A DNA stretch of 64,000 nucleotides, from assembly GCF_003755175.1 (NCBI RefSeq), contig NZ_RKHX01000001.1, positions 1,116,001 to 1,180,000 on the forward strand, given 5' to 3'. The position numbers were made by a program, and so were the translations under genes. Below, in pieces: positions 1,058 to 48,959 of the stretch. Source of the stretch: Cellulomonas sp. PhB150. Lineage in GTDB: Bacteria; Actinomycetota; Actinomycetes; Actinomycetales; Cellulomonadaceae. The notes under the pieces were generated by a model, which made no database searches, was not told where the DNA came from, and saw only the letters and a program-made list of their open reading frames with translations. Each line of letters starts with the position of its first letter. Positions within the stretch are counted from its first letter, which is position 1.

Positions 1058-1945
1058 TCAGGCCAGGCCCGCGGCCCGCTCGGCCGAGTCGACGACGTTG
1101 CTGAGCAGCATCGCGCGGGTCATCGGGCCCACGCCGCCGGGGTTGGGCGAGACCCAGGACGCGACCTCGAGCACGCTCGGGTCGACGTCGCCGACCACGC
1201 GGCTGCGCCCGGTCTCCTCGTCCACGATGCGCGAGACGCCGACGTCGATGACGACCGCGCCGGGCTTGACGATCTCCGAGGTGATGACGCCCTGCACGCC
1301 CGCCGCCGCGATGATGACGTCCGCGTTGCGGGTGTGCTCGGCGAGGTCCTCGGTGCCGGTGTGCGTGAGGGTGACGGTCGCGTTGACCTCGCGCCGGGTG
1401 AGGAGCAGGCCGATGGACCGGCCCACGGTCACGCCGCGCCCGACGACGACCACGTCGGCGCCGGCCAGCGAGATGCCGTGCCGCTCGATGAGCTCGATGA
1501 TGCCGCGCGGCGTGCACGGCAGCGGGCTCGTGACCGGCTCGTTGACGCGCAGGACCAGGCGGCCCAGGTTCGTCGGGTGCAGGCCGTCGGCGTCCTTGTC
1601 GGGGTCGACGAGCTCGAGCACCCGGTTGGTGTCGATGCCCTTCGGCAGCGGCAGCTGGACGATGAACCCGGTGCAGGCCGGGTCCTCGTTCAGGCGCCGC
1701 ACCGCGGCCTCGATCTCCTCCTGGGTGGCCTCGGCGGGCAGGTCCTCGCGGAGCGAGGCGATGCCCACCTCCGCGCAGTCCTTGTGCTTGCCCGCCACGT
1801 ACCACTGCGAGCCCGGGTCCTCGCCGACGAGCAGCGTGCCGAGCCCGGGCGTGATCCCCCGCTCGGCCAGGGCCGCCACCCGGGAGGTCAGCTCGGCCTT
1901 GATGCTCGCCGCGGTCGCCTTGCCGTCCAGGACCTGTGCCGTCAT
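1058..1945 (-). CDS. folD: Methylenetetrahydrofolate dehydrogenase / cyclohydrolase FolD
   Basis: A bifunctional 295-residue enzyme that interconverts 5,10-methylene-THF and 10-formyl-THF with NADP. Visible motifs are [13 protein letters not shown] with the catalytic Lys, [10 protein letters not shown], the Rossmann segment [13 protein letters not shown] and the C-terminal [14 protein letters not shown]. The ATG at 1945 follows the glyA stop by one base, so the two genes are surely co-transcribed and translationally coupled. Because glyA is preceded by a ZTP riboswitch, folD should share that control. Length and motifs are normal; no anomaly is seen. Confidence 0.97.
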
Positions 1946-1946
1946 C

Positions 1947-3239
1947 TCAGTACTGCTCCAGGCCCGAGTACAGCGGGAACGCGTTCGCGAGCTTGGCGAC
2001 GCGCGCACGGAGGGGCTCGACGTCGACGGCCTCGCCCGCGACGAGCGCCTCCGCGATGATGTCGGCGACCTCCGTGAACTCGGCGTCACCGAAGCCGCGG
2101 GTGGCGAGCGCGGGGGTGCCGATCCGCAGGCCGGACGTGACCATGGGCGGGCGCGGGTCGTTGGGGACCGCGTTGCGGTTGACCGTGATGCCGACCTCGT
2201 GCAGGAGGTCCTCGGCCTGCTTGCCGTCGATCGCTGCGTCACGCAGGTCGACGAGCACCAGGTGGACGTCGGTCCCGCCGGACCGGATCGAGATGCCCGC
2301 ACCGGCGACGTCGGCCGCGGTGAGGCGCTCGGCCACGATCTGCGCGCCCCGGACCGTGCGCTCCTGGCGGTCCCGGAACTCGGGCGTGCCGGCGATCTTG
2401 AACGCGACGGCCTTCGCGGCGATCACGTGCATGAGCGGGCCGCCCTGCTGGCCGGGGAACACCGCCGAGTTGATCTTCTTCGCCAGGTCGGCGTCGTTCG
2501 TGAGGATGAAGCCCGAGCGCGGGCCGCCGATCGTCTTGTGCACGGTCGAGGAGACGACGTGGGCGTGCGGCACGGGCGACGGGTGGATGCCCGCCGCGAC
2601 GAGGCCCGCGAAGTGCGCCATGTCGACCCACAGGAGCGCGCCGACCTCGTCGGCGATCGCGCGGAACGCGGCGAAGTCGAGCGTGCGCGGGTAGGCGGAC
2701 CAGCCCGCGATGATCACCTTGGGCTTGTGCTCGACGGCGAGCCGGCGCACCTCGTCCATGTCGACGAGCGACGTGGTCGGGTCCACCCCGTAGGCGACGA
2801 TGTTGTACAGCCGGCCGGAGAAGTTGATCTTCATGCCGTGCGTGAGGTGGCCGCCCTGGTCCAGCGCCAGGCCGAGGATCGTGTCGCCGGGCCGGGCGAT
2901 CGCGTGCAGGACCGCGGCGTTGGCCGTGGCGCCGGAGTGCGGCTGGACGTTGGCGAACTCGGCGCCGAACAGGGCCTTGGCGCGGTCGATCGCGATGGTC
3001 TCCGCGATGTCGACCTGCTCGCAGCCGCCGTAGTAGCGGCGGCCGGGGTAGCCCTCGGCGTACTTGTTCGTCAGCACGGAGCCCTGCGCCTGCAGGACGG
3101 CCCGGGGGACGAAGTTCTCGGAGGCGATCATCTCGAGCGTGGACTGCTGGCGGGCCAGCTCGCCGTCGAGGACGGCGGCGATCTCCGGGTCGAGCTCGGA
3201 GATGTTCTGGTCGAGGAGGGGCGTGTTCTCGGGGCTCAT
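1947..3239 (-). CDS. glyA: Serine hydroxymethyltransferase
   Basis: A 430-residue PLP enzyme that makes glycine and 5,10-methylene-THF from serine and THF. Motifs are [11 protein letters not shown] near the N-terminus, YYGGCEQVD and [11 protein letters not shown], whose Lys (about residue 235) binds PLP. The ATG at 3239 is preceded by AAGGAG at good spacing. The reading frame is open further upstream, but that stretch is riboswitch RNA and does not resemble GlyA. folD follows one base after the stop. The product of glyA is the substrate of FolD, so the operon forms a serine to 10-formyl-THF module. Confidence 0.98.
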
Positions 3240-43381: not shown

Positions 43382-45319
43382 TCAGGCCGGCGGGAGGTCG
43401 GCGAACGCAGAGCGCAGGACCTTCGCGTAGGCGACGACGCCCTTCATGTTCGGGTGGGTGCGGTCGGCGTGCAGCAGGCCCGCGTGGTCGTCGACGTACC
43501 CGCGCCAGTCGGCCACGGTGACGTTCGGGTGGGCGGCCGCGAGCTTCTTGAGCTCGGCGTTCGCGTCCGGGATCCAGTGGCTGATCCCGTTGATCGTCAC
43601 GACGACGACGCGGCGGTCTGGCCCGATCGCGTCGAGGATGTCCTCGAACGCGGCCTCGGAACCCTTGAACTGGAAGCCTCCGTTGGTGCCGAAGTTCAGC
43701 ACGACGACGGGACGCAGCGTGCCCGCCGCGGCGGCCTTCTCGATGATCGGGGTGGCGTCGATCCACTTGCGGATGGGCTTGGCGTCGATGCGGATGCCGG
43801 GGAACGCGTCGTACAGCGTGGGCGCGGCGGCCGAGAGCACGGAGTCCCCGAACGCGACGACCTGGTCACCGGTCACGGGCGCGCCGGGCGCCTTGCTCGG
43901 CGCACTGCTCGGCGAGGGCTTCGTCGGCGCCTGCGCGTTCTGGGCGTCGACCTGCGCCTGGGCGGCCTCGACCGACTCCTGGGCGCGGGACTCGTCGGGC
44001 GCCGTGATCACGGCGACGACCGCGGCGAGCACGACCACGACGGCGAGCCCGGCGAGCACCCGCGGCAGCCGCGCCGGACCGCGACACGCGTCGCGGGCAC
44101 GACGCGCGGACTCCCGCGCACCGAGCTGCCGCACGGGCGACTCCACCCAGCGGTAGCTCGCCCAGGAGAGCGCGACGGTGAGCGCCAGCGCGAGCAGCGC
44201 GGTGCGCCACCACGACGAGGTCCCGGTCCCGTCGCCCGCGACCGCGGCGACCACGAGGATCACGGGCCAGTGCCACAGGTACAGCCCGTACGACCGCTCA
44301 CCGACCCAGACCAGCGGCCGCACCGAGAGCGCGCTCACGTACCCGGACGACCCGGCGGCCGGGGTCGTGCACGCGACCACGGCGACCACGGCGAGCAGGG
44401 AGGCGACGAAGATCCCGCCGCGGTACGCGACCGCCTCGTCGGCGCCCATCACGACGACGAGCACGCCGAGCAGCGCCAGTGCGGCCGGCCCCGCCCAGCG
44501 AGCCCAGGCACGGCGCGGCAGCAGCTCGTCGCGCCCGGCCCAGGCGAACGCCGCGGACGCCCCGAGCAGCAGCCCGAACGCGTGGGTGTCCGTGCCGTAG
44601 TAGACGCGCGTGGGGTCGTCGCCCGGGTGGTAGCGCAGGGCCATCAGCAGTGCCGACGCGAGTGCCCCGGCGAGCGCGAGCCGCGCGCGGACGCGCCACG
44701 TGCGGCAGACCGCGAGCACGACAGCGAGCAGGAGCGGCCACAGCAGGTAGAACTGCTCCTCGATCGCCAGCGACCAGAACGTCTGGAACAGCTCGGGCTG
44801 CGTGGAGTCGAAGTAGCTCGCGCCCGCGCCGATGGCGAGCCAGTTGGTCGAGAACGTGAGCGCGCCGAGCACCTGGCGGCCGATGCCGACGAGCAGGTCA
44901 CGATCGGCCAGCGCGGCCGCGGGGATGCTCACCGCGACGACGAGCAGCAGGGCGGGGACGAGCCGCCGCGCGCGCCGCACCCAGAACCGGGCGAGCTGCA
45001 GCCGACCGCCGTCGCGCACCTCCCGCAGCAGGAGGGTGGTGATGAGGAAGCCGCTGACGACGAAGAACACGTCGACGCCCAGGAACCCGCCCGGCAGCTG
45101 GTCCGGGAACAGGTGGTAGGCGATCACGGCTGTGACCGCGAGCGCCCTCAGTCCGTCGAGCCCGGGGATCCGCCCGGTGCGGCGGTGGGCGTGCGCGGCG
45201 TCGGCCGACGCCGCCGAGGCGAGGTCGGCGTCCGGTGCGCGGCCTGGCCCCGTCCCGCGTTCCCGTCCGGGCGCGCGATCGAGGTCAGGCCCGCCACGCG
45301 GCCTGCTCTCGACGGTCAT
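43382..45319 (-). CDS. Membrane acyltransferase with C-terminal SGNH domain (OafA/OatA-like)
   Basis: About 645 residues. A cytoplasmic tail precedes an acyltransferase-3 domain with ten or more membrane spans. It starts GLDGLRALAVTAVIAYHLFP (catalytic-type His) and contains GVDVFFVVSGFLIT, FWSLAIEEQFYLLWPL and SYGLYLWHWPV. The extracellular C-terminal third is an SGNH hydrolase: AFGDSVLSAAAP, NFGTNGG and DRTHPNMKG. Such proteins O-acetylate peptidoglycan or surface glycans outside the cell; the acceptor here is unknown. The start may be the GTG at 45325 or the ATG at 45319. Confidence 0.9.
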   Translation of the reverse strand: MTVESRPRGGPDLDRAPGRERGTGPGRAPDADLASAASADAAHAHRRTGRIPGLDGLRALAVTAVIAYHLFPDQLPGGFLGVDVFFVVSGFLITTLLLREVRDGGRLQLARFWVRRARRLVPALLLVVAVSIPAAALADRDLLVGIGRQVLGALTFSTNWLAIGAGASYFDSTQPELFQTFWSLAIEEQFYLLWPLLLAVVLAVCRTWRVRARLALAGALASALLMALRYHPGDDPTRVYYGTDTHAFGLLLGASAAFAWAGRDELLPRRAWARWAGPAALALLGVLVVVMGADEAVAYRGGIFVASLLAVVAVVACTTPAAGSSGYVSALSVRPLVWVGERSYGLYLWHWPVILVVAAVAGDGTGTSSWWRTALLALALTVALSWASYRWVESPVRQLGARESARRARDACRGPARLPRVLAGLAVVVVLAAVVAVITAPDESRAQESVEAAQAQVDAQNAQAPTKPSPSSAPSKAPGAPVTGDQVVAFGDSVLSAAAPTLYDAFPGIRIDAKPIRKWIDATPIIEKAAAAGTLRPVVVLNFGTNGGFQFKGSEAAFEDILDAIGPDRRVVVVTINGISHWIPDANAELKKLAAAHPNVTVADWRGYVDDHAGLLHADRTHPNMKGVVAYAKVLRSAFADLPPA

Positions 45320-45453
45320 CGCCACCCCACGGGCTCGCTCGCCGTGGCCACCCGCACCGTTCCGTCCGTGCAGCCCTGTCCGATTCCCACGGTAGGTCGG
45401 CGCGGGCCGCTTCCCCGGACCCGCGGTCGGCGTGTCGGGTCCGGTGACGGTCC

Positions 45454-45497
45454 GTCAACCAGAGTTGACAGATCGCCAGTCGTCAACCTAGGTTGAC
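45454..45497 (+). promoter_or_regulatory. Twin palindromic operators overlapping the HTH/Clp_N promoter
   Basis: GTCAACCAGAGTTGAC (45454-45469, imperfect at the centre) and GTCAACCTAGGTTGAC (45482-45497, perfect) are 28 bp apart centre to centre. The right arm of the first contains the -35 TTGACA (45465-45470); the second contains the -10 TAGGTT (45489-45494), with an 18-bp spacer. The ATG at 45501 is 6 nt after the -10, so the mRNA is leaderless. Confidence 0.85.
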
Positions 45498-45500
45498 ACC

Positions 45501-45710
45501 ATGCCCGACGACCTCCTCGCCACCGCCGCAGCCGCCGCACCCGCGGAGGGCCTGCGCGCCGTCCGCTCGCTGCACGAGCTGGCCGACCGGCTCGAGGCGC
45601 TGCACGTCGAGCGAGCCCGCGGCCTCGGCTGGTCCTGGCAGCAGGTCGCCGAGGCCCTGGGGGTCTCCCGCCAAGCCGTCCACAAGAAGTACGGGAAGAG
45701 GTTCGACTGA
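45501..45710 (+). CDS. Small helix-turn-helix protein, probable autorepressor
   Basis: 69 residues. The C-terminal half WSWQQVAEALGVSRQAVHKKYGKRF is a clear helix-turn-helix of the MerR/HTH_38-like type. The N-terminal half (LRAVRSLHELADRLEALHVERA) is a helix suitable for dimerisation. There is no room for a ligand domain. It is followed by a Clp_N protein with a one-base stop/start overlap (TGATG). Its promoter carries two palindromes that fit a dimer of this protein. Confidence 0.85.
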   Translation: MPDDLLATAAAAAPAEGLRAVRSLHELADRLEALHVERARGLGWSWQQVAEALGVSRQAVHKKYGKRFD

Positions 45711-46240
45711 TGTTCGAGCGATTCGCCACCGAGGCCCGTGACGCCGTCACGGCCGCCCAGTCCGTCGCTCGCTCGCGCGGCGACTCCCTGATCACGTCGG
45801 CGCACCTCCTGCTCGCGCTGGCGGACGAGCCCACCTCCGTCGCGTCGCTCGCGCTCTCGTCGCTCGGCGTCGACGGCCCCGCGCTGCGCACGGCGATGGA
45901 CTCCCCCGCACGAGCCGCTCTGGACGGCGACGCGCTCGCCGCGATCGGCGTCGACCTCGACACCGTCCGGGCACAGGTCGAGGGCACGTTCGGCGCAGGC
46001 GCACTGGATCGGGCCGCGCCGACCGGCGGGCGACACCTGCCGTTGACGCCCGATGCGAAGAAGGTGATCGAGCAGTCCCTGCGGGTGGTCGTCGCGGAGC
46101 GGTCCCGAAGCATCGACACCGGGCACCTGCTCGTCGCGGTGAGCCTGGTCGACGACTCCGCCGGACGCGCGATGCTGACGCGCGCCGGCGTCACCGCGGA
46201 GTCGGCCCGAGCGGCCGTCGCGGCCACGCGTGCAGCCTGA
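45710..46240 (+). CDS. Stand-alone Clp_N (double ClpN) protein without ATPase domain
   Basis: 176 residues that look like the N-terminal domain of ClpC. The start MFERFATEARDAVTAAQSVA and TSAHLLLALADE match the first Clp_N repeat; LTPDAKKVIEQSLRVVVAE and IDTGHLLVAVSLVDD match the second. No Walker motif is present. In ClpC this domain binds adaptors and substrates (and phospho-Arg), so a free copy might compete with or supply substrates to a Clp machine, or sense for the HTH partner. It is translationally coupled to the HTH gene. Confidence 0.9.
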   Translation: MFERFATEARDAVTAAQSVARSRGDSLITSAHLLLALADEPTSVASLALSSLGVDGPALRTAMDSPARAALDGDALAAIGVDLDTVRAQVEGTFGAGALDRAAPTGGRHLPLTPDAKKVIEQSLRVVVAERSRSIDTGHLLVAVSLVDDSAGRAMLTRAGVTAESARAAVAATRAA

Positions 46241-46247
46241 GCCCTCG

Positions 46248-48959
46248 CTAGAGCTTGGTCACCGGGGAGTACCGCAGCAGGAGCCGCTTGCTGCCCTCGC
46301 TGCCGAAGTCGACCTTCACCACGGCGTTCGGTCCGGCACCCTCGAGCGCGACGACCGTGCCGAGGCCGTAGGCGTCGTGCGTGACCCGGTCGCCGATCGC
46401 CAGCTGCGGCAGGTCGCCGACGGCTCGCGGGGTCGCCGAGCCGAAGGTCGCGCCGGTCGAGGGCAGGGCCGGCCGCTGCTCGGCGCGCGCGCGCGACCCG
46501 GGGCTCGTGCTGTACCCACCGGACCCTGCGCCTCCGGATCCGTACGCGCCCGACCGCGACCCGCCCGAGCCGTAGCCCGACCCCCAGCCGCCGCGCAGCT
46601 GGGACGTGGACGACTCGCGCCGCCGCCAGTCGATGAGCTCGTCGGGCAGCTCGTCGAGGAATCGACTCGGGGGGAACTCGTTCGGCACGCCCCACGCGGT
46701 GCGGATCGCGGCGCGTGAGACGTAGAGCCGCTCCCGCGCGCGGGTCACGCCCACGTAGGCCAGGCGCCGCTCCTCGGCGAGCTGGTCGACGTCCTGCAGC
46801 GACCGCATGTGCGGGAACGTGCCGTCCTCCATGCCCGTGAGGAACACGACGGGGAACTCCAGGCCCTTGGCCGTGTGCAGCGTCATGAGCGTCACGACGC
46901 CCGGCTCGGGGCGCGCGGCCGCGTCGGCGGCCTCCTCCGCGCCGTCGGGCGTCGGGATCTGGTCGGAGTCCGCGACGAGCGAGACGCGCTCGAGGAAGTC
47001 GGCCAGGTCACCCTCGGGGTCGGACTGCTCGAACTCGGACGCCACCGCGTGCAGCTCGGCCAGGTTCTCGACCCGGGACGCGTCCTGCGGGTCCTCGCTC
47101 GCGCGCAGCTCGGCCAGGTAGCCCGAGCGGTCGAGCACGGCTCCGAGCACCTCGGCGGGGCCGGCGCCGGCGTCGGCCAGCACGCGCAGGTCGGTCATCA
47201 TGTCGGCGAAGGCCGTGAGCCCCGTGATGGCACGGGTGCCGAGCCCGGGGACCTCGTCGAGCCGGTCCAGCGCGGCGCCGAACGAGATCCGCTCGCGCTC
47301 GGCGAAGGTCGCCACCATCGCCTCCGAGCGGTCGCCCAACCCACGCTTCGGCACGTTGAGGATGCGGCGCAGGTTGACGTCGTCGTCCGGGTTGGCCACG
47401 GCCCGCAGGTACGCGACGGCGTCCTTGATCTCGCGCCGCTCGTAGAAGCGCGTGCCGCCGACGATCTTGTACGGCAGCCCGACGCGGACCAGCGCGTCCT
47501 CGATCGCGCGGGACTGCGCGTTGGCGCGGTAGAAGATCGCGACGTCCCCCGGTCGCACATGCTCGGAGTCCCCGAGCCGGTCGATCTCGCCGACGATGAA
47601 CCGGGCCTCCTCGCGCTCGTCGTCCGCGACGTACGCGACGATCTGCGCGCCCTGGCCCGAGTCGGTCCACAGCCGCTTGGGCTTGCGGCCCGGGTTGCGG
47701 CTGATCACGGCGTTGGCGGCCGAGAGGATCGTCTGGGTGGAGCGGTAGTTCTGCTCGAGCAGGATCGTGCGGGCGTCGGGGTAGTCGGCCTCGAACTCCA
47801 TGATGTTGCGGATCGAGGCGCCACGGAACGCGTAGATCGACTGGTCGGCGTCGCCGACGACCGTCAGCTCGCCGCGCGGGACACCCACGGGCGCCGGCTC
47901 GTCGGGATCCCCCGCCGGGGGCTCGTCGGCGTCGAACAGCGACGTCGCCCGGGCCGCCGGCGGTGCCGCCGCCGCGCCGAGCGGCGTCCCCGGGACCAGC
48001 ACCGAGCGGTCGCTGCCGACGAGCTCGCGCACCAGCACGTACTGCGCGTGGTTGGTGTCCTGGTACTCGTCGACCAGCACGTGCCGGAACCGGCGCCGGT
48101 AGTGCTCGGCGACGGCGGGGAACGCCTGCAGCAGGTGGACGGTGGTCATGATCAGGTCGTCGAAGTCGAGCGCGTGCGCCTGCCGCAGCCGCGCCTGGTA
48201 CCGGGTGTAGACCTGCGCGAGCGCCGCGTCGAAGTCGTTCGCCGAGCCGCCTCCCGACGTGCGGGCGAACTCCTCGGGATCCACGAGCTCGTCCTTGAGC
48301 GAGGAGATCTTGTGCGCGAGCGCCTTGGCCGGGTAGCGCTTCGGGTCGAGCTCGAGCTCGCGCGCGACCAGGGTGAGCAGGCGCTGGGAGTCGGCCGCGT
48401 CGTAGATCGAGAAGCTCGAGCGCAGCCCGAGCGTGGCGGCCTCGCGGCGCAGGATCCGCACGCACGCGGAGTGGAACGTGGAGACCCACATCCGCCCCGC
48501 CGCCGGCCCGACCAGCTGTTCGACCCGCTCGCGCATCTCGGCTGCGGCCTTGTTCGTGAACGTGATCGCCAGCACCTGCCCCGGCCGCGCGCGACGCGTG
48601 GCCATCAGGTAGGCGATCCGGTGCGCCAGGACGCGCGTCTTGCCCGAGCCGGCGCCCGCGACGATGAGCAACGGGCCGCCGTGGTGCACGACGGCCTCGC
48701 GCTGCTCGGGGTTGAGCCCGACGAGCAGCGCGTCGGCCTCGGCCTGGCGGCGCTCGTCGTCGGCCGCGCGGCGCGCGTCCTCCTCGATGCGCTCGTCGGT
48801 GCGGTGGTCGACCTCGTCCTCCGAGCCGTCGCCGCGCGGCGGCACGACGCGCGGCAGCCCCGACGGGTCGCGGCGCTGGGTGTGCTGGGAGCCCCCCGGG
48901 GCAGCGCGGCGCGCACCCTCGGGCAGGGGCAGGGCGAGGTTCTCGAAGAGCGACGTCAT
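46248..48959 (-). CDS. pcrA: UvrD/PcrA-type ATP-dependent DNA helicase
   Basis: A 903-residue SF1A 3'-5' helicase for repair and for clearing proteins from DNA. It shows GLNPEQREAVVHHGGPLLIVAG, Walker A AGAGSGKT, TFTNKAAAEMRERV, DEYQDTNHAQ, GDADQSIYAFRGA, LEQNYRST, LMTLHTAKGLEFPVVFL and VGVTRARERLYV. About 75 residues precede the helicase core, and a 50-residue insert (PGTPLGAAAAPPAARAT...) separates motifs II and III. The C-terminal tail is Gly/Ser-rich and ends in a Tudor-like module (IGDRVTHDAYGLGTVVAL). It is convergent with the Clp_N gene, 7 bp apart. Confidence 0.96.
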   Translation of the reverse strand: MTSLFENLALPLPEGARRAAPGGSQHTQRRDPSGLPRVVPPRGDGSEDEVDHRTDERIEEDARRAADDERRQAEADALLVGLNPEQREAVVHHGGPLLIVAGAGSGKTRVLAHRIAYLMATRRARPGQVLAITFTNKAAAEMRERVEQLVGPAAGRMWVSTFHSACVRILRREAATLGLRSSFSIYDAADSQRLLTLVARELELDPKRYPAKALAHKISSLKDELVDPEEFARTSGGGSANDFDAALAQVYTRYQARLRQAHALDFDDLIMTTVHLLQAFPAVAEHYRRRFRHVLVDEYQDTNHAQYVLVRELVGSDRSVLVPGTPLGAAAAPPAARATSLFDADEPPAGDPDEPAPVGVPRGELTVVGDADQSIYAFRGASIRNIMEFEADYPDARTILLEQNYRSTQTILSAANAVISRNPGRKPKRLWTDSGQGAQIVAYVADDEREEARFIVGEIDRLGDSEHVRPGDVAIFYRANAQSRAIEDALVRVGLPYKIVGGTRFYERREIKDAVAYLRAVANPDDDVNLRRILNVPKRGLGDRSEAMVATFAERERISFGAALDRLDEVPGLGTRAITGLTAFADMMTDLRVLADAGAGPAEVLGAVLDRSGYLAELRASEDPQDASRVENLAELHAVASEFEQSDPEGDLADFLERVSLVADSDQIPTPDGAEEAADAAARPEPGVVTLMTLHTAKGLEFPVVFLTGMEDGTFPHMRSLQDVDQLAEERRLAYVGVTRARERLYVSRAAIRTAWGVPNEFPPSRFLDELPDELIDWRRRESSTSQLRGGWGSGYGSGGSRSGAYGSGGAGSGGYSTSPGSRARAEQRPALPSTGATFGSATPRAVGDLPQLAIGDRVTHDAYGLGTVVALEGAGPNAVVKVDFGSEGSKRLLLRYSPVTKL

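Follow-up and report, generated by a model that had tools for sequence, protein, structure and literature searches.

A putative two-gene, ClpC2-type sensor-decoy operon in Cellulomonas sp. PhB150

What is a very small DNA-binding protein doing in one operon with a Clp_N domain that has no ATPase attached to it, and why do two palindromes lie over the promoter of this operon? These questions are raised by a gene pair in a 64,000-nt stretch of the genome of Cellulomonas sp. PhB150 (hereafter "the window", whose own numbering is used throughout). An earlier note, made from the sequence alone, had described the pair and had stated that no system of this form was known. Here we computed the gene structure of the pair, the geometry and conservation of its promoter and operators, the homology of both proteins to mycobacterial ClpC2, and the distribution of the operator relative to each of the two genes.

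Anatomy of the locus and its promoter

The first gene (45501-45710, + strand) encodes a helix-turn-helix (HTH) protein of 69 aa and the second (45710-46240, + strand) a Clp_N protein of 176 aa; the two are coupled by a TGATG stop/start overlap (45708-45712, + strand). Pfam assigned HTH_23 to the former (4e-6) and two Clp_N repeats to the latter (3e-22), with no AAA domain and no other match. The ORFs and Pfam thus agreed with the pair as it had been described. By homology, the HTH protein corresponds to the N-terminal domain of ClpC2 and the stand-alone double repeat to its C-terminal domain, a ClpC decoy. An AlphaFold2 model of the HTH protein (pLDDT 89.7 overall) contained four helices, including a confident one at residues 57-68, the position of the predicted recognition helix (residues 56-68, SRQAVHKKYGKRF; 45666-45704, + strand), in which Q58, A59 and H61 are invariant across 24 relatives.

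Upstream of the HTH gene, two predicted operators lie 28 bp apart from start to start. Operator 1 (GTCAACCAGAGTTGAC; 45454-45469) reads GTCAAC-CAGA-GTTGAC and has 6-bp arms, and operator 2 (GTCAACCTAGGTTGAC; 45482-45497) is a perfect 16-bp palindrome, GTCAAC-CTAG-GTTGAC. The distance given by the earlier note was correct, but its form GTCAACC-N2-GGTTGAC does not apply to the first site, which is GTCAAC-N4-GTTGAC. The sequence also bore out the placement of the two palindromes over a leaderless promoter, a geometry that is conserved in relatives. The -35 hexamer TTGACA of this inferred promoter (45465-45470, + strand) lies inside the right arm of operator 1, and 18 bp separate it from the -10 hexamer TAGGTT (45489-45494, + strand), which lies within operator 2. 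Since the A of the HTH ATG is only 7 nt past the -10, there is no space for a leader with a ribosome-binding site, and the transcript should therefore be leaderless. The -10 is weak, matching TATAAT at three of six positions, and its counterparts in relatives read TATGTT, TAGATT or TACATT. A generic promoter scan did not report this promoter, because of the weak -10.

We then searched the 3.8-Mb genome of the strain for exact GTCAAC-N4-GTTGAC sites. Two were observed, both at this locus, against 0.05 expected from base composition, and the search found no second operator target beyond the HTH/Clp_N locus. A large regulon in this genome was thus ruled out, and the two sites point to pure autoregulation there. 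The other Clp_N domains of the genome belong to reading frames of 864 and 881 aa, which are ClpC and, by length, ClpB; a fused ClpC2 is absent. The window protein shares the Clp_N double repeat, with F2, R4 and F5 conserved, with the N-terminal domain of ClpC1/ClpC, but unlike these it has no ATPase modules and is expressed from a separate promoter.

The closest named relative comes from Cellulomonas rhizosphaerae (86% identity). In the window the pair is flanked by a convergent UvrD/PcrA-type helicase gene (46248-48959, - strand) and a divergent acyltransferase/SGNH gene (43382-45325, - strand), and in some relatives (L028, L030, L037) one of these two genes adjoins the pair as well.

Conservation and kinship with fused ClpC2

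We compared 82 loci picked by similarity to the window Clp_N protein, which came from its own bacterial family, its class and Kitasatospora. A separate small HTH gene precedes the Clp_N gene in all 82, so that the pair is a conserved unit as the earlier note had supposed. The junction between the genes varies, being either an overlap or a short gap (TGATG, GTGA, 30-nt gaps). A frameshift or sequencing error that breaks a fused gene was ruled out, given that all the relatives are split and at varied junctions. A lack of palindrome conservation upstream of orthologous pairs had been set beforehand as a refuting outcome, and this test was passed. Operator geometry could be measured by program in 79 relatives, of which 76 carried twin operators. 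These 76 relatives gave 152 sites, 150 of them with an N4 spacer; the distance between operators was 27-29 bp in 73 of the relatives, and operator 2 ended 2-4 nt upstream of the start codon in 75.

We also conducted a gene-blind search for double operators in 396 genomes of the phylum, using the pattern read backwards as a control. Eleven places were found, against none with the control. Reading of the translations showed that ten of them lie upstream of an HTH gene followed by a Clp_N-like gene (two of these being diverged), and the remaining one lies upstream of an HTH gene followed by an ABC exporter gene. Clp_N homologues of the split kind occur in at least 83 of 297 sampled genomes of the class and in about half of 150 genomes of the same family.

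HTH/Clp_N pairs were also observed on plasmids, namely pGS01 of Rhodococcus fascians (L152), pSU1 of the gammaproteobacterium Agarilytica (L154) and pSCO1 of Streptomyces collinus (L155). The pair on pGS01 sits between recombinase/integrase genes. With this setting and the occurrence in a gammaproteobacterium, the module is mobile and has spread beyond Actinobacteria. Downstream of the pair on the S. collinus plasmid lie ABC transporter genes, and no operator was found there at up to one mismatch. Recent acquisition from phage was considered and set aside: a search of phage records with the HTH gave no match.

The statement that no such system had been described did not survive, as mycobacterial ClpC2 (Rv2667 / MSMEG_2792) already unites this circuit in a single polypeptide (Taylor et al. 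2023, PMC10030653). In ClpC2, a dimerising domain at the N-terminus is followed by Clp_N at the C-terminus, and the protein represses itself via twin CGTCAAC-n5-GTTGACG operators. These overlap both hexamers (-35 and -10) of its promoter, which is leaderless; cyclomarin A releases this repression, and ClpC2 then acts as a sponge (PMC10030653). The autoregulation has been restated in a report in which induction is cyclomarin-specific (PMC12913811), and a third paper names ClpC2 as bearing an HTH region akin to that of RelI, an antitoxin (PMC13284704). The window pair and ClpC2 have in common an HTH-type N-terminal domain or protein, a Clp_N part without AAA+, the GTCAAC/GTTGAC arms, the position of the operators over the -35 and -10, and the leaderless start. 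They differ in that ClpC2 is one polypeptide whereas the window pair has two genes, and in the operator spacer, which is N5 in ClpC2 and N4 in the window pair and the split family.

In searches against the PDB, the HTH family profile matched RelI (9sdc, 2e-6) and the ClpC2 N-terminal domain (8ada, residues 1-72, E 0.0026), and the window HTH sequence alone matched 8ada weakly (0.054). The Clp_N profile matched the ClpC1 N-terminal domain (2e-46) and the ClpC2 C-terminal domain (8ad9, 6e-28). A Foldseek search with the HTH model returned nothing below E 0.001, the hits being weak HTH folds only (Fis, DeoR and the NtrC DNA-binding domain).

To characterize the fused form, we used 12 genes from the genus of G797, which we infer to be Mycobacterium and in which the domain is present in 47 of 60 genomes. 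All 12 had twin operators with a 5-bp spacer, as published, and five genomes of this genus carry fused and split forms together. In a tree of the joined sequences, the fused proteins formed one clade (SH-aLRT 100) and the split ones stood apart (77). Judged from these sequences, the split pair is a sister system of ClpC2 and not a broken ClpC2. The features that are new relative to the described ClpC2, as far as we searched, are the common two-gene form, the N4 spacer, the separate clade and the coexistence of both forms in some mycobacteria; no account of a two-gene form of the circuit was found in the open-licence papers searched. As a side observation, the split operators of three loci (L083, L095 and L101) have drifted to GTCAAG/CTTGAC arms; the genome of L083 also has a fused ClpC2, and the drift perhaps avoids cross-talk.

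A further small Clp_N protein of mycobacteria, ClpC3 (Hoi et al. 2023, as cited in PMC10864484 and PMC10914731), is described as induced by cyclomarin or ecumicin together with ClpC2 and as a ClpC1 scavenger. ClpC3 may represent the split family in mycobacteria. The PDB entry 8b9o was considered as a ClpC3 structure and ruled out, being closest to the C-terminal domain of fused ClpC2.

We also inspected the positions by which ClpC2 contacts cyclomarin. F172 is a main contact and F96 and E181 are further ones (PMC10030653). The equivalent of F96 is F in 77 of the 82 relatives (F2 in the window), that of E181 is E in 73 (E121 in the window), and that of F172 is F in 75; the window has L112 at this last position (codon at 46043-46045, + strand). 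Given this exchange, cyclomarin may bind poorly to the window protein, and its ligand may differ from cyclomarin.

Operators beyond the gene pair

In six genomes (G766, G866, G928, G723, G663 and G590; loci L187-L192), an ABC exporter gene that has no HTH neighbour is preceded by perfect twin operators; all six have the HTH/Clp_N pair elsewhere. In G723 and G766, where one HTH gene was found each, the only paired operators are those at the HTH/Clp_N operon and those before the exporter. Exporters of this type also follow twin operators in G663, G590, G866 and G928, four genomes with further HTH paralogues. The sequences indicate that these exporter loci form a small regulon with the HTH/Clp_N pair. 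An exporter under shared operators makes general proteostasis a less likely role than defence against ClpC-docking natural products. Twin operators were also observed before a MoxR/AAA_5-type ATPase gene that is divergent from a clpX-like gene (L197).

Next, we examined operator-bearing loci in which one of the two genes is missing. At L045, three operators precede an HTH gene and an overlapping ABC exporter gene (1501-3042), with no Clp_N gene, and L161 likewise has an HTH gene and an overlapping ABC exporter gene behind the same operators without Clp_N. At L169-L171, the HTH gene with twin operators is followed by an overlapping gene of the beta-lactamase fold (PF00144; assigned by Pfam in L169 and by sequence likeness in L170 and L171). 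On the IMG/VR phage contig 3300031902_000417 (L145), a lone HTH gene stands behind twin operators (290-332), and Clp_N was not seen within the 2.6 kb of contig sequence examined. One counter-example was found at L193, where twin operators are followed immediately by a stand-alone Clp_N gene, without an intervening HTH gene. Overall, the operator is associated with the HTH gene and not with the Clp_N gene. The HTH units without Clp_N suggest that the HTH protein can be regulated, or can act, independently of Clp_N.

The phage contig also repeats the perfect operator five times, every 27 bp (2393-2516), inside a downstream ORF with ETSTDVDSS repeats. This stretch is possibly an operator array, or possibly a chance product of the coding repeat.

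Proposed mechanism and its rivals

On homology and on analogy with ClpC2, we consider it fairly probable that the window pair is a two-gene, autorepressed Clp sensor-decoy of the ClpC2 type. A dimer of the HTH protein would bind GTCAAC-N4-GTTGAC at both sites and shut off the leaderless promoter from which it is expressed. The Clp_N protein would be a free ClpC substrate-docking domain that senses compounds or unfolded proteins occupying the docking site of ClpC. Once ligand-bound, it would stop supporting, or would actively weaken, the binding of the HTH protein to DNA, and the operon would be turned on; abundant Clp_N would then soak up the ligand and protect ClpC:ClpP. By the same analogy, the two chains would touch and the signal would be a ClpC-directed natural product. 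The suggestion of the earlier note that Clp_N may be the sensor of the autoregulated HTH protein fits as a candidate role, but the link to proteolysis that it offered is better read, from ClpC2, as that of a ClpC-docking-domain decoy.

Several other explanations were considered. The HTH protein might be a constitutive self-repressor that keeps expression low, with Clp_N as a passive decoy or holdase that signals nothing. HTH units with the same operator occur alone or with other second genes, so that HTH autoregulation needs no Clp_N, as purely homeostatic control would have it. However, across the phylum most HTH loci with twin operators have Clp_N as the second gene, and the two halves of fused ClpC2 are physically coupled and ligand-responsive (PMC10030653). 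We regard homeostasis alone as unlikely, although it is the strongest of the rivals.

It is also conceivable that the switch is proteolytic, the HTH protein being a substrate of ClpC:ClpP that is removed when compounds hyperactivate the protease, and Clp_N competing for docking, sparing the HTH protein and resetting the system. Separate chains would allow one to be degraded and not the other, and the Clp_N part of the fused protein does compete with ClpC1 for ligands (PMC10030653). Yet ClpC2 loses DNA binding in vitro without any protease (PMC10030653), and no degron or adaptor is apparent for the split pair; we consider this switch improbable.

It remains to ask which of the two halves recognises the operator. 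In ClpC2, Taylor et al. attributed DNA contact to R185 and R189 of the Clp_N half; with R185A/R189A, both binding to DNA and repression were weaker in the ClpC2 of M. tuberculosis and M. smegmatis (PMC10030653). If this held for the split pair, then Clp_N itself would read the operator and the HTH protein would only dimerise, and the arrangement at L193 would be in keeping with it. However, the operators at HTH genes without Clp_N (L045, L161, L169-L171 and L145) speak against such a role. In addition, an Arg equivalent to R189 occurs in only 22 of the 82 split proteins, the window protein having A129 there, so that the details of DNA contact must differ from those of ClpC2, and R185 is common to the split proteins and to ClpC itself, which binds DNA without specificity (PMC10030653). 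The published structures bear on this point as well. The ClpC2 crystal 8ADA ends at residue 72 (...GKSMGV) and the construct of the C-terminal domain starts at 94 (PMC10030653); therefore, neither structure includes residues 73-81 (TKQAAQKRF), which align with SRQAVHKKY of the window and form the predicted recognition helix. Given that the crystals stop just short of this helix, DNA reading by Clp_N looks doubtful. AlphaFold2 modeling of fused ClpC2 (8 sequences) reached a pLDDT of 48 and gave weak support for helices at 63-70 and 74-81. The effect of R185A/R189A may thus be an indirect one, and we consider operator reading by Clp_N very improbable for the split pair.

Finally, the HTH protein shares a small fold with RelI (Rv2664, PMC13284704), which is its best profile match in the PDB and which its authors derive from ClpC2-like HTHs, but a relic of a toxin-antitoxin system with a degenerate toxin as partner is scarcely credible, since RelI is paired with a RelE-superfamily RNase toxin encoded upstream and its authors found no inverted repeats or operator palindromes upstream of relSI (PMC13284704), whereas the partner of the window HTH is encoded downstream and is a Clp_N double repeat, well conserved and unlike a RelE/BrnT fold, and the locus has operators.

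Returning to the sensor-decoy, we also put forward a broader proposal, more tentatively and with rather less confidence than the narrower one. The HTH gene with its twin N4 operators may be an exchangeable cassette for actinobacterial chemical defence, whose partner gene can encode a Clp_N decoy, an ABC exporter or a hydrolase of the beta-lactamase fold, and which in some genomes would control decoy and exporter through one pair. The split Clp_N would sense ClpC-directed natural products in trans, the HTH protein would read the DNA, and the published assignment to Clp_N would be wrong.

ClpC1 is a target for antitubercular drugs, and the known escape route runs through ClpC2, which soaks up one ClpC1 ligand. 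A separate and widespread two-gene form would mean that a second sensor-decoy exists in many actinobacteria, including some mycobacteria. Co-regulation with an ABC exporter speaks for natural-product defence and not for housekeeping. Because the genes are split, DNA reading and drug reading can each be assigned to one of the halves by direct test, and the operator would provide a genome-wide handle on the targets of the circuit.
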